Assembly: GCA_037951105.1 (NCBI GenBank) | Contig: JBAMJV010003810.1 | Location: 62,001-126,000 of the forward strand | Direction of reading: 5' to 3' | Length of the DNA: 64,000 nt | From: Echinarachnius parma | Taxonomy: Eukaryota; Echinodermata; Echinoidea; Clypeasteroida; Echinarachniidae | Shown: piece by piece, positions 3,621 to 25,735 of the stretch | Layout: each line of letters opens with the position of its first letter | Position numbering within the stretch: the stretch's first letter is position 1 | The notes under the pieces: generated by a model | What the model was told of the DNA's origin: nothing | Database searches by the model: none | What the model saw: the letters and a program-made list of their open reading frames with translations, nothing else | Program-made: the position numbers and the translations under genes

Positions 3621-3764
3621 CTAGTACTGTGAGGTGTGCGTTGGTGATGATAGAGCCGTATCTATTAGTTGCCACACACTGCACAGCAGATGAGCTGTCC
3701 ACATCACTAGTCTGTAAGATGGTCAGAGTCCCTTGACCGTCTACTCCACTGACCTCCAACTGCA
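3621..3764 (-). CDS. ADAM-Ig gene: exon for second half of Ig4
   Basis: Starts after an acceptor with two bases completing the codon from the 4304-4441 exon, and ends phase 1 at a gtgaga donor. It encodes the C-terminal half of an Ig domain: GTLTILQTSDVDSSSAVQCV, then a conserved NRYGSI stretch and a final beta strand. The usual Asp-x-Gly-x-Tyr-x-Cys motif is altered to an SSSAVQC form, keeping the second Cys. The open donor shows that the gene continues beyond the window's left part. Confidence 0.82.
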
Positions 3765-4167
3765 CTGACTGACCTTCACGAAGTGGGAATTGATTTAATT
3801 ATAAAATATGATTTGCTTGACTATTCATTGTACACTTCCATTTACCTTATTCAAATGATGACTTATATCTGATTAAAATTTGATACCCTTGACTATTTCA
3901 TCACGCAATTATGTTGACTCAATTCAAATCGTGTTCATTCAATTTTAATTAAAATAAAATCTCAGCATTGATCAACACATTTAAAAGAGGGGATGCGAAT
4001 TTTGGTTCAATTATATTCAAAATTTATTAGGTTTGATTTAATTTAAGCATTGCATTTTTGTTGTTGCAAGAAACTTACAAAAATAATTATATTTCAATAA
4101 ATTTGTATTGCACTGTTCCTTTTCTGCAAGCCTTAAGTTTTATGAAATGAATAGTACATTGTTTACC

Positions 4168-4275
4168 CCATTCAGGACTGGTCCCTAAAACACTCGGGCT
4201 GGGGTCTATGGAGAATGCGTGTCTGTCATGCCATAATCAATGCATCCTCAACAGGTTTAATGGCCGAGGGGAAAC
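4168..4275. mobile_element. Copy of a short CAGGACTGG/TTAAC inverted-repeat mini-element
   Basis: The sequence ccattcaggactggtccctaa and a nearby ggtctatggagaatg match the element at 9628-9701 and the copy at 50550-50646. This copy is degraded at its right end. It is part of a dispersed family of roughly 70-110 bp with TTAAC-type termini. Confidence 0.45.
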
Positions 4276-4303
4276 AGACCAATACTGTGAGATATATACT
4301 TAC

Positions 4304-4441
4304 TGACTTCTTCCACTGGTTGGTTGTTGATGAGCCATGTGATGGTAGGGGTAGGATCCCCCGTGGCCCCACAGTGGAAAGAGACGGACACACCCACTGG
4401 CACCGTCACACTCTCAGGAAGGTCCACCCATGTTGGGGCAG
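4304..4441 (-). CDS. ADAM-Ig gene: exon for first half of Ig4
   Basis: Two bases after the acceptor complete the split codon, and the exon ends phase 1 at a consensus gtaagt donor. It reads PTWVDLPESVTVPVGVSVSF, then HCGATGDPTPTITWLINNQ: a typical first Ig half with the B-strand Cys and the C-strand Trp. It is the only one of three neighbouring copies that keeps both open frame and splice donor. Confidence 0.85.
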
Positions 4442-4514
4442 CTATACAAACACAAAATAAATATGTCAAATAAATAATACATTGGAAACAAATCATAAAG
4501 AAGTGATTGTGATT

Positions 4515-4636
4515 TTGGTTGTTGATGAGCCATGTGATGGTAGGGGTAGGATCCCCCGTGACCCCACAGTGGAAAGAGATGGATACACCCACTGGCACCG
4601 TCACACTCTCAGGTAGGGCCACCCATGTTGGGGCAG
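4515..4636 (-). pseudogene. Tandem copy of the Ig4 first-half exon, donor missing
   Basis: Near-identical to the functional exon from the acceptor through WLINNQ, with an open frame, but it is joined to intron sequence right after NNQ and has no splice donor. It therefore cannot act as an internal exon with standard splicing. The ~180-bp unit includes the end of the preceding intron. Confidence 0.75.
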
Positions 4637-4711
4637 CTATACAAACACAAAATAAATATGTCAAATAAATAATACATTGGAAACAAATCATGAAAAAGTG
4701 ATTGTGATTTT

Positions 4712-4833
4712 GTTTTTTAAAAGGCCAGGTGCTATATGGGGTGGGATCCCCCGTGGCCCCACAGTAGAAGGAGACCGATACACCCACTGGCACCGTCACA
4801 CTGAGGAAGGGCTTCGCTACCATGTTGGGGCAG
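4712..4833 (-). pseudogene. Second tandem copy of the Ig4 first-half exon, frameshifted
   Basis: It starts with the same acceptor and CCCCAACATGG, but a 1-bp loss turns the next codon into TAG, and the tail (CCATATAGCACC) has further changes. It is the most decayed of the three copies and lies farthest upstream in the gene. Confidence 0.75.
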
Positions 4834-5377
4834 CTATAACAATCACATTTATAAAAACATATTTTATTTAATTTATTTATTTCCACAAATGGGTGGGATG
4901 GCCCTTTTAGCAGAAACTGATTTTCAAAGGGGTCCCGTGAAGGGTTAGCATGGAAACATTAAATAACATAAGTAAAACATTCTGGGAGAAAATTAAGAGA
5001 AAACGCTTGGAAACATATTTACATATACAATAACATTTAAGAACAGATAACTATGCCTGTTATATATATATTTTGCATACCACACATTTTGCTCTAGATC
5101 ATACTATGAAGGTTTACAAATCAATTTCTTCTAATTCGAATACAACCTGACATTAACTACAAAAAAGGTACACATCTTTAATGTAACTAATGTAATTTGT
5201 AACTCCTGCGGTTGGAAGTTTATAAAATGAACAACCTAAAAATAGATGGCACACTGCTCTAAAGCATGAAGTAAAAAAGCCAAATATTTGCTCAAGCAAA
5301 CACATTACACATAATATACAACACATATCTGGCAAATTTTTGGTCTCATTTTTTCAAAATATCCAAATTTGACTTAC

Positions 5378-5565
5378 CCCTGACTTGTAGTGTGACGGGA
5401 TATTCTACCCTGTCCCCAGCACCATTGTCTGCGATGCACACATAGGATCCTGCGTCTTGCGGCTGGAGGTCAGTGATCACCAACTCCTGACCGTAGCTGG
5501 TGTGCGACGACCGATTCGTTGGGAGTTCATCCCCTCTCCTCTCCCACCAAATTTGAGGTACAGGG
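5378..5565 (-). CDS. ADAM-Ig gene: exon for second half of Ig3
   Basis: A single C after the ttag acceptor completes an Asn codon from the previous exon, giving GNPVPQIWWERRGDELP, then QPQDAGSYVCIADNGAGDRV, the canonical Asp-x-Gly-x-Tyr-x-Cys ending of an Ig domain. It ends phase 1 at gtaagt. The combined Ig3 resembles the third Ig domain of L1-family adhesion molecules. Confidence 0.9.
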
Positions 5566-5884
5566 CTAAGATGAATTACAAGGAGATGTCATGGAGTTAT
5601 GTTGACATGTATCGAAAGGATTCATTTATATTGCCTATTTTAAAAACTATGGAACACTCGTCATGGTCAAATGCTTATAAATTGTTGTCTCCTCTGCACT
5701 CAGTCTTTGTAATAGTAGCTCCACACTGTATTTACAAAGAGCAAATCTTTACATCAAAGTTCCTGAAGCAAAATTCAAATGTTTTATTTGTATGCTTATT
5801 GTATAAACACTGAAACATTCATTGTCAAAAGTTCAAATGTTGGCTAATATGCAGCAAGCCCTTTTAGCTGCCCAGTACTGTATT

Positions 5885-5964
5885 TAACCCCTTCACTACA
5901 GGAACCAGGTGGGTTGTGTACAAAGTCTATGGGGATTTCAGAAACTCAAAGGGAACGGGTTAAG
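5885..5964. mobile_element. Short inverted-repeat mini-element with TTAACCC ends
   Basis: It begins TTTAACCCCTTCAC and ends GGGAACGGGTTAA. The interior has acccggttcc-like and TTTGTACACAACCCACC-like motifs in inverse orientation. Related copies are visible near 7324-7370, 9860-9928, 14860-14942 and 32309-32389, so this is a dispersed family of very small non-autonomous elements. Confidence 0.6.
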
Positions 5965-5985
5965 ATGGGTAAATTGGTAACCTAC

Positions 5986-6082
5986 TTTCCAACAGCGACA
6001 CACTTCAAGCTGAGCTGTTCACCTTGCAGTCCAGTCTCAGTGCTTTGTGGAGAGTAGACTAGTCTTGGTGGCTGAGCAGACT
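5986..6082 (-). CDS. ADAM-Ig gene: exon for first half of Ig3
   Basis: Two bases complete the previous codon after a T-rich tract and TAG acceptor. The exon reads SAQPPRLVYSPQSTE, then GEQLSLKCVAVG, and ends phase 2 at gtaggt. The pattern (Pro-rich linker strand, then Leu-x-Leu-x-Cys) matches the start of an I-set Ig domain. Confidence 0.87.
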
Positions 6083-6623
6083 CTACAAAAAAAAAAAATG
6101 GTAATGGAGAATATATTATTCTTACAATTTGATATCACTTACATTATTTCCATTTTTTGTCACAACAAATTTTAGTCACTTGATATGTCTCATAATTACG
6201 TCATGTGCTACAATCATAAAAAATAAAATAAAACCTGTGTTAATAAAAAAATATAAAAAATTTGAGTTCTCAGTGCTGATTGTTTTGACACATTATGAGT
6301 AATAAGAGTAATACATGACAACAGGGATACTTTTTTTACAGATACAATATTCTACAACCCATATACAGGTATACAGGGAACAGAAGTAGTGATGTCACAT
6401 TCTTTGGTTACAACATACAATGTTGTAACATTTCTAAATAATTTGCCTTCCGATTCTTGCTTTTGGTCGTGGGTTAAAGCTGGACGATTGCCTTCTTAGC
6501 AACTGCTCGGTCAGAAATGTCTGGCTTACCTGACATTGTTTAGAACCATTACACATGGCAATGAAAAGTGGTGATGTCACACATTGGTACTCTATTCTAT
6601 ACTCTGATGATGCATTTACTTAC

Positions 6624-6914
6624 TCTTGACTAGGAGGTTGATCCGCGGAGACTCGATCCTGACTCCCATCACCTCGTTGACCACGATGCAGTGGTAGAGC
6701 CCCGAGTCTCGCTCCTTGGCGTTGGCGATGACCAGGTTACCCCGAGGATCCTGGGATATGCGTCTACTGTACGCAATGGGTTCGCCAGAAGCGTTGAGGG
6801 CCCAGGAAATGAGAGGCGGGGGTACGCTGAGGGGCGGGTTGCATGCTAGGATCGCAGGGTCGCCAACATTCACCTCTCTGATGGTGCCGGGACTGGCGGA
6901 GAAACGACCCATTG
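6624..6914 (-). CDS. ADAM-Ig gene: complete Ig2 in one exon
   Basis: After ttag the exon runs in frame for 291 bp and ends phase 1 at gtaagt. It encodes a whole Ig domain: VNVGDPAILACNPPLS, PPPLISWALN, NLVIANAKERDSGLYHC and a closing strand. The CNPP.S.PP..ISW block is characteristic of the second Ig domain of the L1/neurofascin/NrCAM group, which is my basis for calling this region L1-like. Partial decayed copies follow at 6961-7058 and 7203-7240. Confidence 0.9.
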
Positions 6915-6960
6915 CTAAGAAGAGAAATTAATCCAATGTACACTTGGAATGATATTACAA

Positions 6961-7058
6961 ACTTGAGGGCCCAGGAAATGAGAGGTACATGTAGGGGTAA
7001 GCTCAAAGGTGGGTTGCACTCCCAAGGACTGGCAGAAAATTGGCCCATGGCCAAGTAG
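6961..7058 (-). pseudogene. Partial copy of the Ig2 exon
   Basis: The minus strand reads MGQFSASPW, then ECNPPLSL, then PLISWAL, clearly matching the intact Ig2 exon but with deletions and small insertions. It lies immediately 5' (in gene direction) of the functional exon. Confidence 0.75.
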
Positions 7059-7202
7059 AGAAATTAATCAAAATTATACTTTATTCTTCAATCATAAATC
7101 TTTGGAATAATAAATGATACAACAAGGACTTGCTAAGAATAAAAAATAGACTTTTTTTTTTTTAATTCTAAAACTTTGTTAAATTTTTGTTTTATAGATG
7201 AT

Positions 7203-7240
7203 ACAACAGTACTGGCAGAGAAACAACCCATGGGTAAGAA
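7203..7240 (-). pseudogene. Short third copy of the start of the Ig2 exon
   Basis: The sequence actggcagagaaacaaccca resembles the first bases of the Ig2 exon and its acceptor (actggcggagaaacgaccca at 6892-6911). Only the exon start is recognisable. Confidence 0.5.
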
Positions 7241-7451
7241 AAGGAGCAAAATAAATTATTCTCCTCCTTAAGAACTTCTTAACAAAAAATGAATTGCATT
7301 AAAATGAGGCATTACTATTTACCTGTTCACTACTATAACCCATCAGGTTCCCGTAGGCAATGGGTTACCTGTCAGCCTAACTGAGCTCTTGCCTGAAATG
7401 GTGATAACGTATAGATTTGACTATGTTACATAAGGAAAACAATATAACTAC

Positions 7452-7630
7452 CTGCTCGTTTGACTGAGCTTTTGGGAGACACAGCGGTTGTGTAGATATT
7501 GGACACCAGACACTGGTAGATGCCCACATCACCGTAGCCAGGGAACTGGATGGTGAGGTTGCCATGACGGAGCCACATGCGGGGATCATTAGCAATGTCA
7601 ATCTCCTCTCCATCCTTTAACCAGATGTAG
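7452..7630 (-). CDS. ADAM-Ig gene: exon for second half of Ig1
   Basis: One base completes a Ser codon from the large upstream exon; the exon ends phase 1. It reads YIWLKDGEEIDIANDPRMWL, then GNLTIQFPGYGDVGIYQC and LVSNIYTTAVS. The Ile-Ala-x-Asp-Pro-Arg stretch and the Gly-x-Tyr-Gln-Cys ending resemble Ig1 of neurofascin/L1-type proteins. Confidence 0.9.
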
Positions 7631-7939
7631 CTGCAACAGGGTAGGCAAAGGACAAATAAGTTTATCCATTATTAATGGGAAAGAAGGGAAAGATTTCATC
7701 ATGAAGTCACTTTGTAACATAAACTTTAGGCCCACAAATAACATTTTTAAAACTTATAAAAGTTAGTTACATATATTATTCCAGGCTTGAACACAGTTCT
7801 AATAAATCAGTTAGTACTTAACAGGCTCAAGGCTGATGTATATTTTTCTGTGACTATCCTAAAATTAACTAGAATGACAGTATTCAAACAAATTTCACAA
7901 GCAGTTACAAAAGAAAGACATGTAGGAATTATGTAGTAC

Positions 7940-9030
7940 CTTATAACAGAGAGTCCAGAGGCCTCACAGTTGAGTTTTAGGTCCCTGCCAGTGACGATGT
8001 ACAGCTCTGGATCTGGTTCAACTACAAACATTGGAGGATCTGACAGCTCTGTGATTCCTAACCTCTGCATGATCTCCTCCACTTCAGCTTGCTCACCATA
8101 GATGGGAGAGTTGACTCCAGTCGCTGGAGATAAAATGGAAGCCACAGTACATGTTGCACGTGTGGTAGCAACATCAGGTTTCTGTGGTTCAACTATGGAG
8201 GACCCGTCAATTGGGTCTAATTCTTCCAAACTACCATGTATTCCGTTATTGGATGCATTGGGATTCACCACTACAGGGGTTGCTGTTGAAGACGCTCCCT
8301 CGGTTGGTTCAATTTCTTGCTCTGGGTAGTGGGCAAAGACAGGAGGAGTTGTAGGAAGTGCCTTTGATAGTTGCGATTGTTGCCTGGTTGCTGGCGAGGT
8401 TGTGGAAGGTGCCTTCGTCTGTGCTTGTTGTCTGATGGCTGGTTTGGAGATCACTCTTTCCGTTACTTCAATGTCATTTTGCTCCTCATCTAGTCCAACT
8501 TCATTCTCCTCAGCATTCAAGGAGGACAAGGTTGTTGCCATAGCAGGCAAGTTTGCATGAGTGGCTTCAAACTTATTGGGTGTTGTCGGTATCTTCACGT
8601 GAGTGGTCAGAGTTGCAGGTGGCTTTGGGTTGTTTGCAACGAGCAGAGAATTGGTGTCAGTGGACGATGTGGTGGAAGTGGTCGACAACTTTGCTAGCAC
8701 TGTTGCAAGAGGCTCTGGAATGTTGGCAACAAGCAAGGCATCGGTGTCAATGGTGTTGAACCTCTCCTCTACCTCTTCCTCAACTCGCTGAAGATCACGA
8801 TTGATTTCCGCATCTTCTTCGATTCTCCCAAGATTTGGGTTGATTTCTGCATTCTGGTTTAGGGAAAGGGAGCTGATGTCTGCACTTACTGGTGCCGCTT
8901 GCCACTCAGTTGCAGGTGCCTCGATGGGAGCTGTGACAACCTCTGCGGCAGCCACAATCTGGCTGGAGCGACGGTCACAATCCTGCATCCTGCGACATTC
9001 ACTGGCGACACAGCAGGCATCACTGCACTC
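7940..9030 (-). CDS. ADAM-Ig gene: large exon with disintegrin tail, low-complexity linker and first half of Ig1
   Basis: This 1,091-bp exon is open throughout (phase 0 start, phase 2 end). It begins ECSDACCVASECRRMQDC, which continues the disintegrin domain but stops after this Cys cluster: the disintegrin loop and the Cys-rich domain of normal ADAMs are absent. About 300 residues follow that are rich in Thr, Ser, Pro, Ala and Glu with little hydrophobic content, suggesting an extended, possibly O-glycosylated stalk. The exon ends with FVVEPDPELYIVTGRDLKLN and CEAS, the first Ig half. Purpose of the stalk is inferred from composition only. Confidence 0.88.
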
Positions 9031-9516
9031 CTATCATGTGGATCACAAAATAAAGGGGAAAAAGGAAGAAATAGAGGCTTTAAAAACTTGTGAAGGGAAC
9101 GACCACTTAGGAGAGAAGTTTAATTTTGATGAGTCTTAAACCTGCCTGTAGGCAGACTACTTGAAGACTGAAGGGAAGGATGGCAATGTGATCAAATGTT
9201 GTATTCTATACCCTTAATTCAGGTATGTGGATTACAAAGGGCAAAAATCCATAAGGTTCAATTGTGTGAATATTAATTAGCGGAGAAGAAATATGTGAGA
9301 ACTGACTGCCTATATATATTATTGTATCCTGCAACATTTAGTTGCAATACAGCTCCAATGAACCCTTATCTGAAGCATCAAGGGAGAAAATGCAAACCAA
9401 AATGTACAACCGGTACCCCTATAAATGGATGCAATAATAATAATAATAATAATGCAAACTGCAAATACAAAGATAAATTACTGAATAAATTTGAAAAGAA
9501 AGGTGAATATTCTTAC

Positions 9517-9603
9517 TTGAGGCTCTCCACAATCACACTCCTCCCTGTCTTCAACAAGACCATTCTAACAAAGTGCGCCCCTCGGATAGGAGAGACAATA
9601 TTA
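9517..9603 (-). pseudogene. Decayed copy of the disintegrin exon (stop in place of the Gly after Cys)
   Basis: It reads YPRGALC, a TAG stop, then NGLVED and EECDCGEPQ followed by gtaag. The splice donor and the 3' end match the functional exon (9977-10145) closely, but an in-frame stop replaces the Gly of CGNG. Confidence 0.8.
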
Positions 9604-9627
9604 CAGAAAGTGACCAAAACTCCAAAT

Positions 9628-9701
9628 TAACCTGTTCAGGACTGATTGATTTTGCTCTAAGATGTATTCTCCATAGACCCTAGCCAGTCCTGAATGGGTT
9701 A
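9628..9701. mobile_element. Complete ~75-bp CAGGACTGG/TTAAC mini-element
   Basis: The left end TTAACCTGTTCAGGACTG is mirrored by CCAGTCCTGAATGGGTTAA. With terminal repeats of about 19 bp it is nearly all inverted repeat. It sits between two disintegrin exon copies. Confidence 0.65.
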
Positions 9702-9741
9702 AAAGAGAAATTACAGAATGGCGTTACTGAATTATACTTAC

Positions 9742-9828
9742 TTGAGGCTCTCCACAATCACACTCCTCTCCCTCTTCCACAAGACCATTCCCACTGAATG
9801 GGCTCATTGGATAGGACGGACAATCTAA
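9742..9828 (-). pseudogene. Second copy of the disintegrin exon (open frame, Cys changed to Ser)
   Basis: The minus strand reads [20 protein letters not shown] then GEPQ and a gtaag donor. The frame is open, but the Cys before GNG has become Ser and the 5' part of the exon is shorter. It could still be used as an alternative exon only if an acceptor exists upstream, which I could not establish. Confidence 0.75.
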
Positions 9829-9859
9829 CAGACACCCAAACTCCAAATAAAAAGAGAAA

Positions 9860-9928
9860 TTAACCCGTTCCCTACGAGTTCATTGACTTTGTACACAACC
9901 CACCCGGTTCCCGTAGTCAAGGGGTTTA
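9860..9928. mobile_element. Short TTAACCCGTTC mini-element
   Basis: Starts TTAACCCGTTCCCTACGAG and ends with an inverted counterpart (cccgtagtcaaggggttta). It contains TTTGTACACAACCCACC, shared in inverse orientation with the copy at 5885-5964. Confidence 0.6.
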
Positions 9929-9976
9929 GGAATGTCACTAATGATGGGATCTGAAAAGGAAGGTGAATATTCTTAC

Positions 9977-10145
9977 TTGAGGCTCTCCACAATCACACTC
10001 CTCCCCCTCTTCCACAAGACCATTCCCACAGAGTGGGCCCCTGGGATAGGAGGGCCGATCTTCCAGACAATCCAGTCTGCCCATGGCCAGGTGGTTGGCC
10101 AGAAGCTGCTTGGAGCATGTGGAGAACTTTGTTGGCGGCTGTTTC
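9977..10145 (-). CDS. ADAM-Ig gene: end of metalloprotease region and start of disintegrin domain
   Basis: One base completes an Arg codon, and the exon ends phase 0 at gtaaga. It reads [13 protein letters not shown], matching the ADAM FS-x-CS motif, then [19 protein letters not shown], the hallmark opening of ADAM disintegrin domains. Two partial copies with the same donor lie downstream. Confidence 0.93.
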
Positions 10146-10492
10146 CTGCAAGTGATGAAGATACATCAGTGTTTATTAACTCTTACAATGCAGTCGGTGA
10201 TGATTTGAGTCGGTGACGATTTGCAGGCTTAATGCAAATTAGCACCAAACAGCACACAAACTATCAATAAAGATCTATAAACCCCTTGGCATGTTCAGAA
10301 GCACTAAATGTATGGGAATCCATCAGTTTCAAACTTGGGACCAGTTGATGGAGGTCAGGCCATATCATACCCATCAGGTAAATGTTTTGATTGTGAATAA
10401 AACCAATATTGCATACCATATTAGCATGAAAGTTAATCTGTATCAAATATCAATAAATCATGTTTTGATGATGTGTATAGAATAGTGCTTAC

Positions 10493-10629
10493 CTTTTGAC
10501 AATATCCATGATGCAGTACTTGGTTGCATCCCGGCATTCGCACTCTGAGCTATCATGGCGCAGACCGATGTTATGTCCTATGCTGTGTGCAGCATCATTG
10601 GCAACTTGAACAACATCATCTGAATGGTC
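10493..10629 (-). CDS. ADAM-Ig gene: zinc-motif exon with Glu to Ser substitution
   Basis: Phase 0 start, phase 2 end at gtaagc. It encodes VANDAAHSIGHNIGLRHDSS, followed by a Cys pattern and YCIMD, aligning with the ADAM consensus H-E-x-x-H-x-x-G-x-x-H-D and C-I-M. All three zinc-binding His and the Gly are kept, but the catalytic Glu is Ser (AGC, complement of 10582-10584). Metal binding may persist while peptide hydrolysis should not. Confidence 0.95.
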
Positions 10630-10981
10630 CTGGGAAAGTGGGAATAAAATATAGCAAGTCAAAGCTGCTTTAAATAAAAATATCAAACATTTCAATTATT
10701 TTATTTTGGGGTTTATTTAGTACTTAATAGTGTATGTGCCAGGAAAAGCCAAATAATTATGTACTAAAATAAACCAGTACCTTCCGTGTAGTGTCTTGCA
10801 GAATCGGGCAATCTTCATGACTCTGCTATTTTGACTGTGCATTATTTTGTATGTAAATGTCTACAATTCAATTGTAAATATTCATGTATCTCTTTAAACT
10901 AACCATATAGCAAACATACTTCAGTACGAGGGGAGGGAAATTCTTGAAAACAATTTGGAGAAAAATAGATCAAGCATTTAC

Positions 10982-11066
10982 CTCCAAAACAGCAGCAGAA
11001 AATGATGGGGAGCACATCTCTCCATGGTACGTGTGGGACTTCATGTGATGCATAAATGTTGTTCCC
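10982..11066 (-). CDS. ADAM-Ig gene: metalloprotease exon (Met-Cys-Ser-Pro block)
   Basis: The 85-bp exon reads GTTFMHHMKSHTYHGEMCSP then SFSAAVLE. It matches the ADAM stretch ending in MCS(P) that precedes the zinc motif. Phases fit both neighbours (previous phase 2, next phase 0). Confidence 0.87.
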
Positions 11067-11476: not shown

Positions 11477-11646
11477 GAAACGAGCAGAGCAAAGTCATGA
11501 TGTTGCTGTGGTAACAGATCCTGCTCTCTCCAGGCAAGGAAGCTATCCAGGGTTTCATAGACGTTAGGACTTACAGCAATCTCGTCTCCTTCATTCCAAA
11601 CCTCACTCCCTACTAGAGAAAGGCTGATGCCTAGGTCCTCATATAG
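11477..11646 (-). CDS. ADAM-Ig gene: metalloprotease exon (Val-Gly-x-Glu-Val-Trp block)
   Basis: It reads LYEDLGISLSLVGSEVWNEG, a TLDSFLAWREQDLLP block, then HHDFALLV. These correspond to the conserved ADAM segments around IxVxLVGxExW, TLxxFxxWR and HDxAxLIT. The exon ends phase 2 at gtaagt. Three decayed copies lie directly upstream in gene direction. Confidence 0.92.
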
Positions 11647-11721
11647 CTAGATTGATTGATAAATGGATTGACCAATTGTTTTATTAATTGATTGATTGAA
11701 AGATAAATCCCTTAGGAAACT

Positions 11722-11829
11722 AATTAGGGTTTCATAAATATTAGCCTAGGACTCACAGCAATAGTATCTCCTTCATCCTATACCTCACTCCCTACAAGAG
11801 ACAGGCTGATGCCTAGGTACTCATATAGC
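11722..11829 (-). pseudogene. Decayed copy 1 of the Val-Gly-x-Glu-Val-Trp exon
   Basis: Shares cataaatattagcctagg-type, ctcactccctac and aggctgatgcctaggt motifs, plus the adjacent intron text tagctagattgattgataaa, with the functional exon. The 3' part with the donor is absent. Confidence 0.75.
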
Positions 11830-11887
11830 TAGATTGATTGATAAATGGATTGACCAATTGTTGTATTGACTGCTGGATAGATACATA

Positions 11888-12011
11888 GACTTCCAGAAAT
11901 TATTCAGTGTTTCATAGACATTAGCCGAGGGCTTACAGCGATCTCTTCGCCTTCATTCTAAACCTCACTCCCTACTAGAGATAGGCTGATGCCTAGGTCT
12001 TCATATAGCTA
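11888..12011 (-). pseudogene. Decayed copy 2 of the Val-Gly-x-Glu-Val-Trp exon
   Basis: Contains tttcatagacattagccgag, cctcactccctactagaga and the same intron boundary as the functional exon. It is closer to the functional exon than copy 1 but lacks the second half and donor. Confidence 0.75.
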
Positions 12012-12081
12012 GATTGATTGATAAATGGATTGACCAATTGCTTTATTGATTAATTGGCAGATAGATTGATTTCATTAAGAC

Positions 12082-12176
12082 AGTAGGAAATGTTCCATCA
12101 TAACTATTAGGGCTCACATCAATTTCTTATCTTGTATTCCGTACCTCCTTCCTTCCTAGCGAAAGAATGATGCCAT
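12082..12176 (-). pseudogene. Decayed copy 3 of the Val-Gly-x-Glu-Val-Trp exon
   Basis: Only weakly similar: it keeps ttccatcataactattaggg, a cctccttccttcctagcgaa block in place of cctcactccctactagagaa, and aatgatgcc. It is the oldest of the copies by divergence. Confidence 0.5.
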
Positions 12177-12722: not shown

Positions 12723-12794
12723 CTGTGCAAGCAGGTGTGTCAGCATCATAGATTTGTTCTTCAGAGCTTCCAAGTCTCTACCACTGTTCACAAA
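12723..12794 (-). CDS. ADAM-Ig gene: metalloprotease exon (helix segment)
   Basis: A 72-bp exon, phase 0 at both ends, reading FVNSGRDLEALKNKSMMLTH then LLAQ. It matches the ADAM helix after the first strand (usually ...D..........N..D..Y). Confidence 0.85.
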
Positions 12795-14113: not shown

Positions 14114-14250
14114 CTGATTATAGTCATGTACAATGTAGAGCTCCAGGTATTTAACTCCTGGATTGGCTCCTGAGGTAGAGGCTTGTGGGGCTCCATTGCC
14201 AGTGGTCTCCCTTCGCTGTCGTCTCCCAGACTGCCTGGTGGGATCCTGTC
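14114..14250 (-). CDS. ADAM-Ig gene: propeptide/metalloprotease junction exon with furin-like site
   Basis: Two bases complete an Arg codon; the exon ends phase 0 at gtaaac. It contains RQSGRRQRRETT, a proprotein-convertase type site, then KYLELYIVHDYNQ, the standard first strand of the ADAM metalloprotease domain. This defines where the propeptide would be removed in the secretory pathway. Confidence 0.92.
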
Positions 14251-14695
14251 CTGGAACAAACCACAGAGGCTTCTCTACTCTAAATCATGCTTTGCTTGCT
14301 TAACAGGTCACGTTTTACTCTAATGAGACCATGTAAGCTGACAGGACCTGTGTTTATCGTATTAGAAAGGACATCCCACAAATAAGATACCCTGACTCTC
14401 TAAGTCAAAGGAATCTTCTTCAGAAGAATAATTAACCTTTTTTCATAATGGAAACAAAACCAGGCAGTGCAGGCACAATGTAATTTCTAATTTGCATCTA
14501 TTTTATATATGTATATGACAGACTTTGAAAATTACATTAAATATTCTTAATGGTGAATTATGTTGATGACATAAACAATCTGACCATTTAAATTCAAAAT
14601 TCAAGACTTATCACAATATGCAAACTTGATGATGGGAATGAATTCCAGAGTCCTGACTACAATCAAGTCAAGGCCTTGTGGAGTCTCACACTCAC

Positions 14696-14808
14696 TTGTT
14701 TCCTGGCGATGTTCTTCAGATGGAGTCAGCCGGGAGACAATGTGAAGCCTCTCATCTTGGCTTGAATCCCTGATGATATACGTTGCCTCGTCAGCATAGA
14801 TAGTTCCC
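14696..14808 (-). CDS. ADAM-Ig gene: propeptide exon
   Basis: Reads RGTIYADEATYIIRDSSQDE then RLHIVSRLTPSEEH, the propeptide strand region of ADAMs (Gly-x-Ile...Tyr-x-Ile-x-Pro-like). One base completes the first codon and the exon ends phase 1 at gtgagt. Both fit the neighbours. Confidence 0.88.
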
Positions 14809-14859
14809 CTATTCAATACAAAGAATGTTTTATTATTTTGTTTATGCGTTTCATTTCAA

Positions 14860-15535: not shown

Positions 15536-15615
15536 CTGATGCTATTTGTACAAGCATCGAGGAATACAGAAGACTTTGTTTGTCCACGGACCGTTCCATG
15601 ATAAAAACAGTTATC
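15536..15615 (-). CDS. ADAM-Ig gene: propeptide exon with the Cys-x-Tyr-His-Gly block
   Basis: Reads DNCFYHGTVRGQTKSSVFLD then ACTNS. The DNC(Y/F)YHG(x)V.G sequence is a signature of ADAM propeptides. Phase 0 start and phase 2 end agree with the next exon. Confidence 0.92.
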
Positions 15616-17027: not shown

Positions 17028-17033
17028 AGAATT

Positions 17034-17796: not shown

Positions 17797-17962
17797 GGAG
17801 CATTATCATGTTTCCGATTTTTATCAAAACAAAGTCATGTTTACCAGAAGAGGTGTGATGCGCCTGAAAGGCTCATCCTGTGCCCTGTATATCGTTTCTA
17901 CAGTTGAGTCCAATGCGCTGTATTTTCTTCAAGAGACAAGAATGATAACAAAGACAAATTAA
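17797..17962 (+). CDS. Unknown nested gene, exon 2 (terminal)
   Basis: A pyrimidine-rich tract and CAG acceptor (ttccactttccag) precede a frame that completes the split Leu codon, then reads EHYHVSDFYQNKVMFTRRGV, followed by about 35 residues, and stops at TAA. Composition is protein-like (mixed hydrophobic and charged). The phase match across the 494-bp intron is the main support. No family was recognised. A LINE fragment follows within about 300 bp. Confidence 0.5.
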
Positions 17963-18270
17963 TAGATTTGCTACGACAAAGTAAAGACATCTATTAAGAC
18001 ACATGTGAGGTGAGCCACTGTATTTCTCTCCATTGCCTGATGTGGAGACTATTATACAGACTATAAAAAAGTATAATTTTACTTTTAAACTATTTTCAGT
18101 CATTATAATATAATTGATTTTACAACTTTTAATGCATTCTTATACTTAAAAAAAAAAAAGCCTGTGCAATGAACACGTGACTTTTATCAAATCATGCACT
18201 TGTAATATTATAAATTATATTGGGAGGGTATATAGCTATTATTTTAAAAAGTTATAACATAAACTGTAAC

Positions 18271-19665
18271 AGTATGGCATTGCTAAAAGGTCTATTATAG
18301 TAGATGACGATGTAGAGGTATTTTTAAGGTTGTATGCTTTACTTTATGCCGATGATACTATTGTGATGGCTGAGTCAGCTGTAGAGTTACAAGCTGCGTT
18401 ATGTGCAGTTCATCAGTATTGTGAACTTTGGAAATTAACTGTCAATGTTACTAAGACAAAAATTATGATTTTTTCTCGCGGAAAAGTTCGTAAATTTCCT
18501 GCCTTTATGTTTGGTGAGAGCGAAGTGGAAGTAGTTCCTGATTATGTTTATCTTGGGACAACCTTTAGTTTTAATGGTTTATTTAATAAAGCTATAGTTA
18601 AACAGGTGAATCAGGCAAGGAGAGCATTATATTGTTTAATTGGTAAGGCAAGGAAATTGTGTTTGCCTTTGGATATTCAATGTGAGTTATTTGATCAGCT
18701 TGTAGTACCAATTTTATTATATGGTTGCGAGGTTTGGGGGTTTCAGAAACTTGATTGTATTGAAATGTTTCATAAGAAATTTCTTAAAAGTTTGCTTAGA
18801 GTTAATCGTGGTACTGCTAATTGTATGGTTTATGGAGAACTTGGTAGGTCTGATTTGAGAAGTACTGTAGAGTCGCGTATGGTTAGCTACTGGGCTAGAA
18901 TTGTTCAGGGGAAAAAGTCAAAGTTATCTTACATTGTTTGTAAGTTGCTGCGTAAGTTGTATGATAAGGGTGATTTTGAGTCGAGGTGGATTAAACATAT
19001 AAAACATATTTTGGATAGGTGTGGAATGTCAAACATCTGGACTGTTGATGTTCCATTGAATATTGATTGGGTGAAATTGTCTTTGAATTTGAGGTTAGCT
19101 GATATGTATAAACAAAATTGGAATGATGAGGTTAATAGGAATCGTTTGTGTATAAATTATAGGATCTTTAAAAGTGTGGTTGGTTTTGAAAAATATTTAG
19201 TGCAGTTGGATGTTAAAGATAGGATAACTTTGTCTAGATTTCGGTGTGGAAACCATAAACTCCCAATAGCAAATGGTCGCTACTTGCCTGAGCAAGAGTT
19301 GCAGATTTGCAGCTTGTGTTCCTTACAAGATCAGGGGGATGAATTTCATTATGTCTTAGTGTGCCCTGCATTTCAGAATGATCGGAAGCAGCTAGTTAAA
19401 GGTCATTATTTTAAGAGGCCAAATGTATATAAGATGTACCAGTTATTTAATGTTAGAAATATTAAACAGTTAAAAAAATTATCAAGGTTTTGCAGTATTA
19501 TTATGGCTAAGTTTTCTTAGTGTGTGCTAGTTAAAAGTTGTTGCCAAAGATTTTGTTTGTTTTTTATCATGTTTATATATGTATATATACACTTGTTGTA
19601 TTTCTCCCATGCCCCCGTGAGGGGCCGTTATTGAGAATAAAATTCATTGTCATTGTCATCCGATA
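18271..19665 (+). mobile_element. 5'-truncated LINE (reverse transcriptase C-terminal half)
   Basis: A 396-codon open frame (18330-19520) contains the reverse-transcriptase motif YADDTIVMAES, the following LNVTKTK-like block, a YLG strand motif, and a C-terminal zinc-knuckle-like C-x2-C...H...C (QICSLCSL, then FHYVLVCPAF). The fingers and upstream domains are absent. The 3' end terminates in a (CATTGT)-type tail (19643-19660), as in several non-LTR clades. The long open frame suggests recent insertion. It lies in an ADAM-Ig intron in opposite orientation. Confidence 0.9.
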
Positions 19666-19830
19666 GCAACAATAACAGTGATCGATACTAGTAGACTGCG
19701 AACAAAAAAAACACCAAGACAGTAGTAATACAATTAAATGCAAGGTATAAGATTGAAATTTGTTTCAGTACGTGCATATGCGAAAAGAAGAGAAAAGTAG
19801 AGATATAATTTTTACGTTTGTACTGTTTAC

Positions 19831-19911
19831 CTCGACTTTTTGACATCCAGAATCAGGTCTTGTTGAAATGCCGCGATGTAAATAGTCGTTTGATTTAGAG
19901 ACCGTAAAATC
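19831..19911 (-). CDS. Possible ADAM-Ig propeptide exon, frame unresolved
   Basis: A good acceptor (cttctag) and a gtaaac donor bound 81 bp. Frame 0 is open (ILRSLNQTTIYIAAF...), and it fits phase with the AAG|gtgagt end of the 20481 exon. A second reading uses the internal acceptor caaag and gives DLILDVKKSR, which looks more like an ADAM propeptide strand and would pair with the alternative ACG G|gtaagg donor. Transcript data are needed to choose. Confidence 0.4.
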
Positions 19912-20071
19912 TAGAAGAAATAAGCAAATTCATATTTTCACCACTACGCATTTAACGGCACGTATTACGTTAATAGTTATTATGAAAGGAAAATATAAAA
20001 ATCCAAACTATTCATATGATCCCTTTATTATGAAAATATTTGCCAGAGTGCAGCCCAGATATGGGGTAAGA

Positions 20072-20235
20072 GGAGGTACAGGGGACAGGGGACAGGGATT
20101 CTCGGGAAAGGGGAGGTATACAGGGGACATGGGACAGGGATTCTCGGGAAAGGGGAGGTACAGGGGACAGGGGACAGGGATTCTCGGGAAAGGGGAGGTA
20201 CAGGGGACAGGGGACAGGGATTCTCGGGAAAGGGG
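20072..20235. repeat. Minisatellite, ~40-bp unit, four copies
   Basis: The unit GGTACAGGGGACAGGGGACA + gggattctcgggaaagggga repeats four times with one variant copy. It is G-rich on the plus strand. It lies in an intron between propeptide exons; ORFs through it are repeat artefacts. Confidence 0.9.
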
Positions 20236-20480
20236 GTAGTAGGTATAAACATGGGTAGGGGGAGCCCAGTCTCATATTCTCAACATTGATGGTATACGTA
20301 TAGGCCCATTCTGGATTTCCCCCGCATGGGACAGTGAGGGATGAAATCATTTCGTGACGTTGGTCATTATTTTCACCTCTCGCACCCGCTTTATTTTGCT
20401 TTAAAATGCATTTCCATAGACCCCAGTCAAATTATTTTCTATTTAAAAGTCAGGTGAAGGGTGATTACATAATCACTCAC

Positions 20481-20572
20481 CTTACCCGTTGCGAATGCCC
20501 CCTCCAACATCAATGGGACTTCGACGGACTGAGGCCGGGAGATGGGCTCCTGGTGGAAGGACTTGGCAAGGA
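20481..20572 (-). CDS. ADAM-Ig gene: N-terminal propeptide exon
   Basis: Two bases after tgcag complete a Val codon from the signal-peptide exon. The exon reads LAKSFHQEPISRPQSVEVPL then MLEGAFATGK and ends at AAG|gtgagt. The leading residues complete the signal-peptide region. Assignment rests on matching phase and position. Confidence 0.72.
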
Positions 20573-20929
20573 CTGCAAAGAGAGTGAAACAAAAACAATA
20601 ATACAAGTTGTTTCATTGTTTCATATTATTTACATATCTGAATAATATCTGACCACCAAAAAAACAACAGAAGGGGAAATCCTTAAAACATAAATAAATC
20701 CATAGAATGTGCCCCTAACAAGTCGAGCGCCCCCAATCAGTGTCTATATGCCTCTGCCCAACAATATTATTATGACAGTAAAACAAAATCACCATATCGG
20801 TTGTTGGACGAAAACGTTAATATACTTCTTTGATTATAAAACAATATCCATTTACAGCATGTATATTTTGTGTAAATTGGGTAACTAAACTCTTAGCGAT
20901 GGACTTAGTAGTAAATCGTCAACCGTGTA

Positions 20930-21755
20930 AAACATCTGCATGTATATAAGTGATATAATAATAATAATAATAATAATAAACCATTTTTATATAGCGCATA
21001 ATCACAACAAATAAATTTAAGTCTCTAAGCGCTTTAAAGGATTGAAAATATAAAAATAGAATAACAGACAGGGAGCGAAGAAAAGACAAGGTGAAATGAA
21101 AAATGACAAAACTTTGACATACAGTGTAAAACCTAATCAATTTACAAATTAAACAAATACGTTTTCAAAAGACTCTTAAAATCATTTACTGTGTCAACAT
21201 GCTTGAGATGGCTCGGTAATTTATTCCATAACTCTGCGGCTGCCAGTTGGAAAGATCTCGCACGGTAAAAATTTGTTGATATTATGGGGGTGACTAAAAG
21301 AGATTTTGACTGAGAGCGAAGGTTTCTTGCTGGACAATATTTTGTTTTCAACTGTTGTAAATAAGCAGGGCCTAATTCTTGCAAGCACATGAAAACCAAT
21401 ATTAAAATCTTAAAATCAATTCGCTGCTTAACCGGGAGCCAATGCAATTGTCGTAAGACTGGACTTAAATGCTCATTGAGTCGAGTGCGAGTAACCAACC
21501 TAGCCGCAGAGTTTTGTATTCGTTGCAACTTTTGAATCTCATTATTAGGCAGACCATACAAAATACCATTACAAAAATCAAGCCGAGACATAACGTGGGC
21601 ATGAACAAGCATCTCTGTCGACTTTTTAGAAAGAAAGGGACGAATTGTTCCAATCTTGTACAAGGCAAATGAAGCAGCTTTGCATATTTGATTTACATGA
21701 GTTGACAGTGTCAGATGCTTGTCCAGTCTCACACCAAGGTTTCTAGCATAGCATA
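20930..21755 (-). mobile_element. CR1-like LINE 3' fragment
   Basis: A 196-codon minus-strand frame (21142-21732) holds the typical end of CR1/L2-type reverse transcriptase: SRLDFCNGILYGLP, IQKLQRIQNSAARLV, LHWLPVKQRIDFKI, a SLLVTP block and AAAELWNKLPSHLK. The 3' end reads AGCGCTATATAAA-like and finishes in (ATT)n (20953-20984). A related copy is at 44085-44670. Confidence 0.93.
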
Positions 21756-21759
21756 ATAT

Positions 21760-24700
21760 AGATTAGAAGGAATCTTTTTTTCTTATAGGGTCTATCATCA
21801 GACACAAAAACAATGACATTGATGTGCAATAACATGTTGTCCCATGCATCCATCCTCATAAATTACCCCAAGTCCCCTTTAACCCGAGGCATGATATCTC
21901 ACGGCCTGAGAAATCAACAGTTAAGTCACATGATGGAAACCACCCCCGCTATTCTGTCGACTACCGCATTTTAAAAATACAAATATGTTGGCCTATTTAA
22001 CGTTTTGTTGTACCATGTTCGCCTATATACGTACATCAGCAATAACAACACCGATCATATTGTTGATGACGATAAAATGAATTAAATGGACATTATTATT
22101 ATAGTAATGACAATTGAAATGATAATAACAGAACTAGTCGTCACAACAAAATAGTATATTATATTTATTATGATATGTATTTCAAAGCGACATGAGCGAG
22201 AGTGCTGCATCCCATTTCTTTTTTTGTATTAGGGGGGCGAGGGAGGAGGGGTGGGGCCTAATGGGAGTTAGGGGGTCACCCCATACCTTTCTCTAGGACA
22301 GAATATAGGAGAATATCAACAAACAAGTTTTTTATTATTAATTATACTATTTTACGGGATGCATTTTCTTTCTTGCCAGAACTGAGATAATTCAAATTAT
22401 TTTCATTGGCCTCTCAACTGGAACAAAAGACAAACAATATTGTCCCATCTTCTCTGATTATCCGGATCTGCCCCTTTATGTCTCCATGGTAACGTGAATC
22501 CTGGCTACGCGCCCCCGATTATGATAATCAAAAGTGATGGAAAACATCCCACCGCGCTTTGTGGTGGTGAATCTAAATGTTAAAACACCCACTTAAAAGT
22601 AGAAAAGATGCATTCAACCCCAAGAGAACACTGTGCAGTGACAGTTCCTCTAAATCTACTCCTAGAAGGCAGTTTCAAGGGTTGGGGCGAGAGTGCAGCG
22701 CCCCCTTTTTTCTGGGGGGGGGGGGTGGCTATAGATAGATTGTTAAAATGTTTTAAGTTGGTTAATCACATTCCTTTCCTTGAGGCAAAATGTTGATATA
22801 GTTTTGCTAGCCTACCAAAACAGTATTCTGGTCCCGTCTCTTATCTGGATCCGCCCATACTTGAAAATATCTCCATGAAAACAGAAACCCTGGCTTTGTG
22901 TCCTCGATAATATAATCCATTCTGATTTAAAACATCCCCTCAATTTTTCATGGATAAGAATCCAAATGTTATGGTTTCAATTGTGAGTTAAACGGTATCT
23001 GCTGAATATAATATGATGCATTTACCAAGCTTTGGGCATTTTGTCGCCTTATTTTCATCACTTCTAAACATCTGGACGTTTTAAAAAAGATATAAAGCAT
23101 GCATTGGGAAATTCATAAGGTCGTGGAAGGTTGTGGGTAGGTGTCTGGTTGCTTTTAAAGTGACTTTACTGTTTGAATTGTGCTATAAAAATTGAATGCA
23201 TCTGGTCATATTATAGATATATCACTTTTAAATCGGAAACTGCATAATATAAAACAATGGGGATGATGGAATATAAAAGACTTAGTAATGCAAATAGACG
23301 TTTCGCATCCTGATGTTCTTCATATGGAAGAAGGATTTAAGGATTGAGAAGACTGGTGGTAACGAAATATAATGTTCTGTCTTTTGTGTTATATATAGAC
23401 TAGAAACACCACGCTCATACATTTTGATATTTGACATTTTTAATAATCTATTCTTAGTTACAGTCAATAAAACTGGGAGCCAATATTTTGTCGAGGTACG
23501 CAAATAATATACGCTCATCTTCATGCTGATATCCAAAATGGTATCCCGTTATCTTTCATACAAATGATAAATGAAGTGTAATGATACCATGCTAGGAGGA
23601 TAAAAACTCTTACATCATTCACGGTATGATTTGCCAGTACAACTGTGAGTATACAAGGAGGTCAGAATGATACCATCGTAGTTTTATCCAATAAACCACC
23701 TTCTTCTCTAATCACAAAACCGATATTTCGCGCACTTGGCACGGTGACAAACTCCAACACCGTTCAACAGATTCAAGCTGCGATATTTCATAAACTCTCT
23801 CGCCTTCCGGTTGCACTATTAATATTCTCACCTGCGTTAAGTGCTCCCATCTATGATTCTTTATGATTAACCATCTATTTACAATCAGCGCATGACCCTT
23901 TCATGACACCATATACCAGGAGGGTTAATTATAAGTATGGGAACGTGCATACTGGATTAAAGGGGGTGCTGATGTAAGCACATAGGCTTGTATATGATCT
24001 TCGACAGGTGAGCGGAAGAGATCAAGTTCAAATAAGGGATAATCGGCCACGCCCAGAATATGCCTTTATACTGTGACCATAATAGGATAAGCAAGTTCGA
24101 AGAATGACAAAACTCATATCTAAAAGATGAGAGTAAATTGCAATGGGAATTCTGAATGGAATTTCGCACCTGGTGAGTAAAATAAACACGATCAAGTCAT
24201 CTCAAAATCACGAACAGCATGAGGCTAAATGTCGGCCACCTCCTCCAATTTGTAAGCAGTATGTGGCTAAATATCGACCACCTCCATCTAATTGTGAGCA
24301 GCTTGAGACTAAAATAAAACCGGATTCATCTTCACAATATCACTACGATGTATAGACCAATCCGATTTCAATTGTCAATTTGTCAAGTTGTAGGAAACCC
24401 GCAGGTAATCGTGAACTTAGAACTACATTCGAGCTTTCACACACTCGAAGTGTGAACGCACTGTTTGACAATATGCATAATAATTGTATATAAACATGGT
24501 CCGATTTCAATTTTAAAGATGTTCCCTAAACAAACCCGAAAATACTAATTTGATTATTTATGAATAAGTAAATTATGTTCAATGCCTATGTGAAAATATG
24601 ACATTAAATGTACGTTCAAGTATATCTGAACAAATCACATTTTAACGTTGACATTTCAGAGTATAGATTTATCGGGCCAAATTTGTATTGGAGCTAAGTT

Positions 24701-25660
24701 GTTGGTCGTTCATTCACTTATATTGTATTTGACAGAAATTGGCAGATACTTCAACATTACATATGACAGGAGCGCTTCATAATAATCGCAAAATGCTGTT
24801 CTCACTTCCTTTTTTGTTATACATGTATTTCTTTCACATTATACAATAACATATACCTCATCTGCTTCTCTTGCTTCTTGGAGGAAATTGGACATTACCA
24901 CTTTCCATCCTCTTTAAATGAACATTTTACAACTTCCCAATTTTCCTAATTTATAAACAAAATTGATGAAGCCTGCAGCAACAATTCTTCCTTCCCTTGC
25001 TTTATTTAGTTACAGTTCACAAATAAATCTGTTTCCAAAATAAATGTTGACTGATTTACAGTCTTCATATACATGAAATGAAATGTCATAGCAATTTCGA
25101 CAGTATTATGCATTTACTTAAAATTAAAGGGGCCACGTGGGCACATTTGTAGGTGCCTGAAATTGATTTTGCTGATTTTGTTTCCATTTTCTCCACAGGC
25201 TTGATATATTTAGTTGACTCGTTTTAAACAAACAACATGGTAATGATATCTTTATAAAATACGAAAATACGAAAAGGTTACATACTAAATGAAATTAGCG
25301 CCGGAGTACTCTGACAGAGTGACAGACCATACAATTTGTTCACGCAAACTGGGGAGGGGGCAGGGACACACTCTTGTCTCTGAGGGGCATGTGGAGGGTG
25401 AAAATACAGTTTGCGCCCCCTCCCCTCTCCAAATGTCCTCACCCATATAATTATAGATGGCATAGGTAGCTAGAGCAGGGCTGCCTTTGTCTGCAAGGGG
25501 TATTTGGAGTGGAAATTCGCCCCCTCCCTTATTATGATTGTTTGCGACCGCCCCCTGCCCACTACTTCCGGTCAGCTCTGGGTATTTTAGTAAAATCATG
25601 CAAAGTGTAGAGAAAACTAATGTATCGCTGGCGCTGCAAAGTGTTACTCATAGTCGACTT
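21760..25660. other. ADAM-Ig intron, no gene recognised
   Basis: This stretch between the signal-peptide exon and the CR1 fragment holds G-rich tracts (22230-22260, 22717-22727) and unclassified AT-rich DNA. Short ORFs on both strands lack recognisable motifs or matching splice sites. Confidence 0.5.
24205..24330 (+). repeat. Three degenerate 42-bp repeats (14-residue period)
   Basis: Units begin cagcatgaggctaaatg, cagtatgtggctaaata and cagcttgagactaaaat. In the plus-strand frame they read QHEAKCRPPPPICK, QYVAKYRPPPSNCE and QLETKIKPDSSS. The frame is only 70 codons long and no gene context supports it. Confidence 0.4.
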
Positions 25661-25662
25661 AC

Positions 25663-25735
25663 CTGTGACTACAAGGCACGTGAGACAAACGACCGTGTGG
25701 TGAAAGGTCGACTCCATCATCGTTGCTGGTGTCAT
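25663..25735 (-). CDS. ADAM-Ig gene: start codon and signal-peptide exon
   Basis: The ATG at 25735 follows an in-frame TAA by two codons (TAA GGA ATG). A second ATG pair at 25720 has A at -3 and may be used instead. The exon reads MMESTFHHTVVCLTCLVVT after the inner start: a short polar head and hydrophobic core typical of a secretory signal. It ends phase 1 at gtaagt, matching the 20481 exon. An acceptor (tatcgtctttctag) at about 25791 suggests an upstream 5'UTR exon. Confidence 0.8.

Follow-up and report, generated by a model that had tools for sequence, protein, structure and literature searches.

A predicted sea-urchin protein that combines a probable ADAM pseudoprotease with an L1/contactin-like immunoglobulin and fibronectin chain

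Gene model and the join of its ADAM and immunoglobulin parts

The stretch of DNA analysed here, referred to as the window, comprises 64,000 nucleotides of contig JBAMJV010003810.1 of the Echinarachnius parma genome assembly (1.2 Gb, 14790 contigs), corresponding to C3809:62001-126000 (contig coordinate = window coordinate + 62000). On its minus strand lies a gene that we followed leftward into the adjoining 62 kb of the same contig, and the final model consists of 41 exons encoding 2486 residues and a stop codon in one open frame without internal stop. Nineteen of the 41 exons, from 25735 to 3621, are located in the window and encode residues 1 to ~1151 (46% of the protein); the remaining 22 are found at C3809:43951-22541. 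The predicted protein begins with a signal peptide, a propeptide with an RQRR site, a reprolysin domain, half of a disintegrin domain (Ds), a stalk and six immunoglobulin (Ig) domains. These are followed by an ADAM17-type disintegrin with a membrane-proximal domain (MPD), a Thr/Pro stalk, two fibronectin type III (FN3) domains, three further Ig domains, four FN3 domains and a short end. It is near certain that this architecture belongs to a single gene.

The initial model was confined to the window (17 exons, 1090 residues, no stop) and was used for the initial Pfam and PDB searches. Tblastn with contactin, L1-family and ADAM proteins against the leftward DNA revealed Ig5, Ig6, the later disintegrin part, two FN3 domains, Ig9 and further FN3 domains, in this order and on the same strand, and the exons for Ig7 and Ig8 were identified from open frames. 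All introns of the 41-exon model start with GT and end with AG, and phase-matching splice sites are present at every junction, one acceptor being located only by reading the sequence. Three propeptide exons absent from the initial model (exons 2-4) were recovered by homology, whereupon a spurious propeptide exon at 15843-15773 was dropped. Likewise, the acceptor of exon 7 was placed at 14277, which preserves the frame, since the candidate at 14279 breaks it. Exons 12-14 (10145-9977, 9030-7940 and 7630-7452) stand in the final model as they did in the first-pass annotation of this stretch.

That annotation had assigned an ADAM propeptide, a reprolysin domain, the start of a disintegrin, a stalk and L1-like Ig domains to one gene, in agreement with the Pfam matches, the second haplotype and three relatives described below. 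It had also named the possibility that the ADAM and Ig exons belong to separate genes, which finds no support at the level of the genomic sequence. In its general form, this alternative states that an exon-model error or a misassembly has merged at least two adjacent genes, one an ADAM and one L1/contactin-like. The model is indeed predicted from genomic DNA, some introns are long (21.7 kb after exon 19 in C3809), and Ig and FN3 modules have common intron phases, so that phase agreement alone is weak evidence between modules. We nevertheless regard such a joining as extremely improbable. Exon 13 is open from the remainder of Ds through the stalk into the first part of Ig1, which argues against two neighbouring genes, and hidden gene ends are made improbable by the short introns at critical joins (326 bases between FN2 and Ig7, 463 between the MPD and the Thr/Pro exon, and 439 between the latter and FN1); the intron from Ig6 to the second disintegrin measures 1981 bases. 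Moreover, the 21.7-kb intron measures only ~0.45 kb in the second haplotype, contig C11322, and the entire order recurs in database proteins of three other sea urchins. As the second haplotype and the three end-to-end relatives repeat this order, a chance artefact at the predicted gene locus is excluded.

Since the ADAM-Ig join is located inside exon 13 and not at an intron, the earlier proposal that the ectodomain came from exon shuffling with an adhesion-molecule gene does not hold in its simple intron-to-intron form for the present junction. The gene therefore provides an example of a domain fusion with its junction inside an exon. The stalk encoded by this exon is poorly conserved between the sea-urchin proteins (28-31% identity), and this variable stretch looks like a spacer.

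Table 1. Exons of the gene located in the window, with the evidence for each (window coordinates).
Feature	Position	Strand	Evidence
Exon 1, start codon and signal peptide (MTPATMMESTFHHTVVCLTCLVVT)	25663..25735	-	resembles N-termini of orthologues; weakest exon call
Exon 2, propeptide	20481..20572	-	tblastn with Diadema orthologue, E 4.8e-7; splice sites and phase
Exon 3, propeptide	19831..19910	-	tblastn with S. purpuratus orthologue, E 6.5e-10, 70%; splice sites and phase
Exon 4, propeptide	17845..17926	-	tblastn with S. purpuratus orthologue, E 2.1e-8; splice sites and phase
Exon 5, propeptide (DNCFYHGTVRG)	15536..15615	-	exon model and tblastn
Exon 6, propeptide	14696..14808	-	exon model
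Exon 7, propeptide end with furin-like RQRR, metalloprotease start	14114..14277	-	exon model
Exon 8, metalloprotease	12723..12794	-	exon model and Pfam
Exon 9, metalloprotease	11477..11646	-	exon model and Pfam
Exon 10, metalloprotease	10982..11066	-	exon model and Pfam
Exon 11, active site HSIGHNIGLRHD (zinc His present, catalytic Glu replaced by Ser), Met-turn CIM	10493..10629	-	alignment, haplotypes
Exon 12, metalloprotease end, disintegrin start	9977..10145	-	Pfam and PDB search
Exon 13, chimeric: rest of Ds half-disintegrin, stalk of ~300 residues, first half of Ig1	7940..9030	-	PDB search, haplotype, alignment
Exon 14, second half of Ig1	7452..7630	-	exon model, Pfam and module profiles
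Exon 15, Ig2	6624..6914	-	exon model, Pfam and module profiles
Exon 16, Ig3 first part	5986..6082	-	exon model, Pfam and module profiles
Exon 17, Ig3 second part	5378..5565	-	exon model, Pfam and module profiles
Exon 18, Ig4 first part	4304..4441	-	exon model, Pfam and module profiles
Exon 19, Ig4 second part, last within the window	3621..3773	-	exon model, splice sites, haplotype

Relatives in other sea urchins and constraint between haplotypes

A protein search with a 2416-residue model as query, scored over residues 154-404, yielded 7 matches among 375 candidates. Three of them are relatives over the whole length: XP_003724086.2/LOC100889062 of S. purpuratus (2332 residues), LOC129256838 of L. 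pictus (2331 residues) and a protein of Diadema antillarum (2331 residues), with 73%, 71% and 62% identity in the scored region, respectively. The other four have no Ig among their listed domains; three are ADAM proteins of insects and one is from Symbiodinium. In the alignment, the three sea-urchin proteins, all annotated as 'uncharacterized', have the module order from end to end and the motif HSIGH in common with the protein of E. parma, and no structural difference was found between them and it. Overall identity to the latter amounts to 57.4% (S. purpuratus), 55.8% (L. pictus) and 53.2% (Diadema), and the S. purpuratus protein is 79.1% identical to that of L. pictus and 54.0% to that of Diadema. 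By module, identity to S. purpuratus is 70% in the protease, 77% in Ds, 72% in Ig1, 31% in the stalk, 54% in the second disintegrin, 45% in the MPD and 69% in FN5; the C-terminal KSKRS is found in E. parma and two relatives and reads KTKRS in Diadema.

The search for the same architecture in related genomes, suggested by the first-pass annotation, thus found it in three species. The accompanying statement that no vertebrate ADAM has this order rested on the wrong comparison, as the animal is a sea urchin and the order occurs in uncharacterized echinoid proteins. Earlier protein searches with the 1090-residue query had returned no protein with both ADAM and Ig among its listed domains (58 matches; 120 listed of 401); the relatives were missed because that query reached only proteins up to 1.75 times its own length, and they measure ~2331 residues. 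Outside the echinoids no protein with the same order was recovered, a weak negative from the single search of 375 candidates with 7 matches. The titles and abstract beginnings searched contain no account of the protein, and the S. purpuratus gene name occurs in none of the papers searched. According to PMC4550289, which cites a 2006 survey, the sea urchin seems to be without ADAM10 and to have one ADAM outside the ADAM10/17 clade. PMC2527298 describes many Ig proteins in test and spine matrices, naming one with FN3, for which we find no link to this gene. Judged by these comparisons, the predicted architecture assembles known parts in a new way and is conserved in the echinoids compared, whose sequences are already in databases.

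Contig C11322 parallels the locus, the longer aligned pieces being mostly 93-98% identical, and owing to this parallel course we infer that it represents the second haplotype and not a recent duplicate. It contains 38 of the 38 exons of an earlier model, with AG at 37 of 37 acceptors and GT at 38 of 38 donors, and exons 2-4 and the last exon are present as well. Synonymous and nonsynonymous differences were counted on that earlier model, which includes one spurious propeptide exon and omits exons 2-4 and the last exon. The totals are 61 synonymous and 30 nonsynonymous differences (omega 0.15). Exons 7-12, which encode the propeptide end, the protease and the start of Ds, carry 9 and 0, respectively, for which the neutral chance at 178 of 795 synonymous sites is, by arithmetic, ~1.4e-6. 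The corresponding counts are 16/4 from the second half of Ig1 to Ig4, 9/2 in Ig5-6, 3/1 in the second disintegrin with MPD and 7/0 in the last FN3 domains. These counts show that the predicted folded domains are under selective constraint.

They also bear on the view that the locus is a pseudogene or a decaying copy, marked by the loss of the catalytic Glu and by the truncated tandem copies of exons in its introns, to which frame-shifting indels in FN3 exons of C11322 may be added. This view is very improbable: the same Ser replaces Glu in the proteins of all four species, a conservation that refutes decay for this species set, exons 7-12 show the excess of synonymous differences described above, and C3809 is without internal stop over 2486 codons.

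The introns of the gene present several further differences and repeats. Between window 3620 and C3809:43952 lies the intron that follows exon 19; long in one haplotype and short in the other, it reflects a large insertion or loss, and partial, decayed copies of exon 19 are located near both ends of the long form (window ~2864-2830 and C3809:44213-44028), none being found in C11322. The Ig7-Ig8 intron contains an open frame that by eye resembles reverse transcriptase (C3809:33890-31525); C11322 aligns on both sides with nothing between. The truncated tandem copies are derived from exon ends, each lacking part of its exon: exon 18 at 4320-4847 (195-base unit; two extra copies in C3809, one in C11322), exon 9 at 11566-12049 (180-base unit), the tail of exon 12 at 9834-9742 and 9607-9517 (both minus strand), and FN6a at C3809:24872-24037 (six extra copies in C3809, seven in C11322). 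Near the first exons, long open frames at 18270-19520 (plus strand) and 21762-21145 (minus strand) appear by eye to be remains of LINE reverse transcriptase. Downstream of the gene, a stretch of about 11 kb (C3809:9720-20669) is 99.0% identical between the haplotype contigs, as compared to mostly 93-98% within the gene. The window also contains a 224-base tandem repeat in three copies (94% matches) at 1788-2455 and, at 48641-49562 and 28125-28671, long tracts judged by eye to be simple repeats, with open frames in several frames.

ADAM-derived parts and the Ig/FN3 chain

The Reprolysin family of Pfam matched the initial model over positions 1-200 of 200 (E 1.3e-49), and PF01421 matches the present protein over the same positions at 4.2e-49 and all three relatives at 4.2e-49 to 9e-49. 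In the PDB search with the initial model, residues 154-396 aligned with atragin (1.2e-47) and residues 154-392 with bothropasin (8.3e-47), both alignments crossing the 9977/9030 exon junction from the protease into the disintegrin (CDCGEPQ-ECSDACCVASECRR); ADAM22 was also among the matches (9.6e-27). The database matches assign the first ADAM part to the ADAM9/12/19/33 type; they include a fish berythractivase-like protein, a Ptychodera ADAM12-like protein, a skate ADAM19-like protein, and ADAM12 and ADAM33 proteins of psyllids. The first disintegrin had been described as incomplete, and only its Ds half is indeed present (Pfam positions 1-33 of 75, a weak match with E 0.014 in the initial model); a complete disintegrin follows Ig6. 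Among the Pfam matches listed for the four proteins (E 0.01; at least 25 for the S. purpuratus protein), PF08516 is absent, and we did not find a complete disintegrin, a cysteine-rich and an EGF-like part directly after the protease, nor any TSP1 family as in ADAMTS proteins.

The ADAM protease claimed by the first-pass annotation is not a working one by its motif. In place of HEXGHXXGXXHD the protein has HSIGHNIGLRHD, and the relatives have HSIGHNIGLMHD twice and HSIGHTLGLRHD once, so that HSIGH, with Ser at the position of the catalytic Glu, replaces HEXGH in all four proteins and in both haplotypes. The four aligned sequences show no variation in HSIGH, the three zinc His, the Met of the Met-turn or eight Ds cysteines. 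Other ADAMs among the matches have likewise lost the Glu (HGIGH in the skate ADAM19-like protein, HMIGH in insect ADAMs, and also HVLGH); since some ADAMs are thus without the motif, its loss bears on activity and not on kinship. The motif is needed for ADAM activity according to PMC4550289, and the ADAM enzyme encoded here is dead by motif. A secreted protease that is still active, with a different residue as general base and with Ig/FN3 arms that aim it at its substrates, could be read from the zinc His, the following Asp and the Met-turn, all retained in the four proteins, and from an RXRR site after the propeptide (RQRR here) in each of them. Given the requirement for the motif in ADAMs, the Ser in all sequences seen and the absence, by eye, of a cysteine-switch motif before RQRR, we consider such an enzyme improbable.

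With regard to the Ig/FN3 chain, the four Ig domains noted in the window are confirmed (four Ig stretches in the initial model, Ig_3 1.1e-53), but the whole protein has nine, together with the FN3 domains and the ADAM17-type module. In all four proteins, Pfam finds nine stretches of Ig_3 and five of fn3, and module profiles count six FN3 domains. In contactins and L1 proteins, each of the modules Ig1-6, FN1 and FN2 has its highest or almost highest profile score at the equivalent position, and the profiles of Ig9, FN3 and FN4 match Ig6, FN1 and FN2 again; the matches of FN2, FN4, FN5 and FN6 are weak, and Ig7-8 have no assignable counterpart. The order of these matches and the repeat suggest a single L1/contactin array in which an Ig-FN3 part is repeated and two ADAM pieces are inserted. 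As in L1CAM, six Ig domains would precede the FN3 domains, Ig1-6 and FN1-2 being at the right positions, but the ADAM17-type block stands between them. The resemblance of Ig1-Ig3 to L1CAM and neurofascin proposed before was seen again; contactins, however, match Ig1-2 as well, and two trees (Ig1-4 and Ig1-2, each with 17 hand-chosen rows) place the protein with neither family, the four echinoid proteins clustering with support of 97/99 in the Ig1-2 tree.

The genome contains a separate Ig gene at C674:116495-124469, with a haplotype on C3571 (4.3 kb read), which is 41% identical to the present protein in the second half of Ig1, 37% in Ig2 and 40% in Ig3. We term it L1/contactin-like by virtue of the Ig search and these identities alone; that search listed at least 67 matches, which include many other Ig genes. 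C674 and C3571 are both absent from the 33 matches of the genome search for ADAM (40 candidates scored) and from the 29 listed for contactin-5.

For the middle disintegrin and MPD, ADAM17 was the best of 11 PDB sequences (162 residues, 2.2e-18), and Pfam lists the complete disintegrin in all four proteins, above the cut-off in two. A genome search with this part gave nine matches, eight in the two haplotypes and one at C10489:25342-25464 (49% over 41 residues), which is possibly ADAM17 itself. ADAM10/17 act as sheddases of L1 and related proteins in vertebrates. This module might therefore be read as a decoy or brake on shedding, in which the ADAM17-type disintegrin and MPD on an L1-like ectodomain would compete with true ADAM17 for partners or substrates; the PDB match, the ADAM17_MPD match of the Diadema protein and the partial match on C10489, if true ADAM17, are consistent with it. 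The interaction is purely hypothetical, and the module is less conserved towards S. purpuratus (54% and 45%) than the protease (70%), so that we judge a decoy unlikely.

Probable secretion, possible function and known systems

Beyond residue 60, the mean hydropathy of 19-residue windows in the E. parma protein does not exceed 1.41, the usual mark of a membrane segment being 1.6, and its maximum in the last 150 residues is 0.66 here and 0.82-0.93 in the relatives, i.e. no hydrophobic C-terminal tail is present. Thus, the hydropathy scan of the four proteins gave no transmembrane segment as expected of an ADAM, and neither the transmembrane segment and ankyrin-binding tail of L1CAM, the protein ending in KSKRSHNVQ after the last FN3 domain, nor the contactin arrangement of six Ig, four FN3 and a GPI-anchor signal was found. 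In the absence of an evident membrane segment, the protein is probably secreted.

Taken together, the data suggest a conserved ADAM pseudoprotease set in an L1/contactin-like scaffold, large and secreted, that works as a binding module; we put the probability of this mechanism as a whole at roughly two in three. The propeptide would be removed by furin-type cleavage. ADAM22 and ADAM23 bind LGI proteins, and by analogy the protease-like domain with the half disintegrin would bind a partner without cutting it. The Ig1-4 block may fold into the horseshoe of L1 and contactins and bind surface partners, the ADAM17-type disintegrin and MPD would provide a second docking site, and the Ig/FN3 chain would space these sites, so that the whole protein might bridge cells, or cells and matrix, instead of digesting them.

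Several points weigh against this reading. Its binding and bridging steps are by analogy only, and the gene model is a prediction from genomic sequence; the three relatives in turn come from databases, where one or more of them is marked PREDICTED. Constraint between the haplotypes is moderate in FN1-2 (6/4) and Ig7-9 (8/6) and absent in exon 13 (2/6), the Thr/Pro exon (1/3) and the signal peptide with propeptide (0/4). Four FN3 exons of C11322 contain small indels which, if genuine, would disrupt the reading frame (FN3 has three single-base losses, FN4 has +8, FN5a -1 and +2, and FN6a +1); several are single-base losses in one-base runs or short repeats, and they could be assembly errors or a damaged allele. 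The propeptide model PF01562 is among the Pfam matches listed (E 0.01) for none of the four proteins; the position, the DNCFYHGTVRG segment and the RXRR site are consistent with a propeptide. ADAM17_MPD (PF16698) is found in one of the four, that of Diadema, just under the cut-off (2.2e-5, 25.1 versus 26.2 bits), and is absent among the matches listed for the other three. Glu loss to Ser is not the only one seen, given HGIGH and HMIGH, and a dead ADAM alone is unremarkable. Finally, the relatives have 19-residue windows of 1.72-1.79, though inside the Ig8-Ig9 stretch, and a membrane-bound last exon may exist as an alternative.

A further elaboration would make the protein a fused regulator of the sheddase system, in which a dead ADAM, together with the end of ADAM17 that faces the substrate, is embedded in an L1/contactin-class ectodomain, of the kind shed by these enzymes in vertebrates, to form a soluble decoy or organiser that sets the place and amount of adhesion-molecule shedding; we hold this to be rather unlikely. 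In any case, the preferred reading, a binding pseudoprotease, offers a natural test of the role of ADAM domains without catalysis, in the laboratory models S. purpuratus and Lytechinus.

Compared with known systems, the protein has the reprolysin fold, the Ds half and the position of a propeptide with a furin-like site in common with ADAM9/12/19/33 and with the snake-venom P-III metalloproteinases atragin and bothropasin; in contrast to them, it lacks the catalytic Glu and an evident membrane segment, PF08516 is absent among the Pfam matches listed, and its first disintegrin ends after the first half. With ADAM17 it has the second disintegrin and MPD in common, but this module is placed between Ig6 and FN3 without a metalloprotease directly before it. 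The L1CAM family (L1, NrCAM, neurofascin) and the contactins likewise have Ig1-6 followed by FN3, with modules matching in order, whereas the sea-urchin protein carries additional ADAM pieces, N-terminally and behind Ig6, as well as a partial second Ig-FN3 run, and no membrane anchor was found in it. As in the adhesive pseudoproteases ADAM22, ADAM23 and ADAM11, catalysis appears to be lost; these are membrane-anchored, retain disintegrin, cysteine-rich and EGF-like parts, and are not known to carry an Ig or FN3 chain. In vertebrates, pseudo-ADAMs and L1/contactin molecules both serve neural adhesion as separate proteins, and in one lineage a dead ADAM, encoded by constrained exons, seems to have been fused with another ADAM fragment and an L1/contactin chain to give a single conserved protein.

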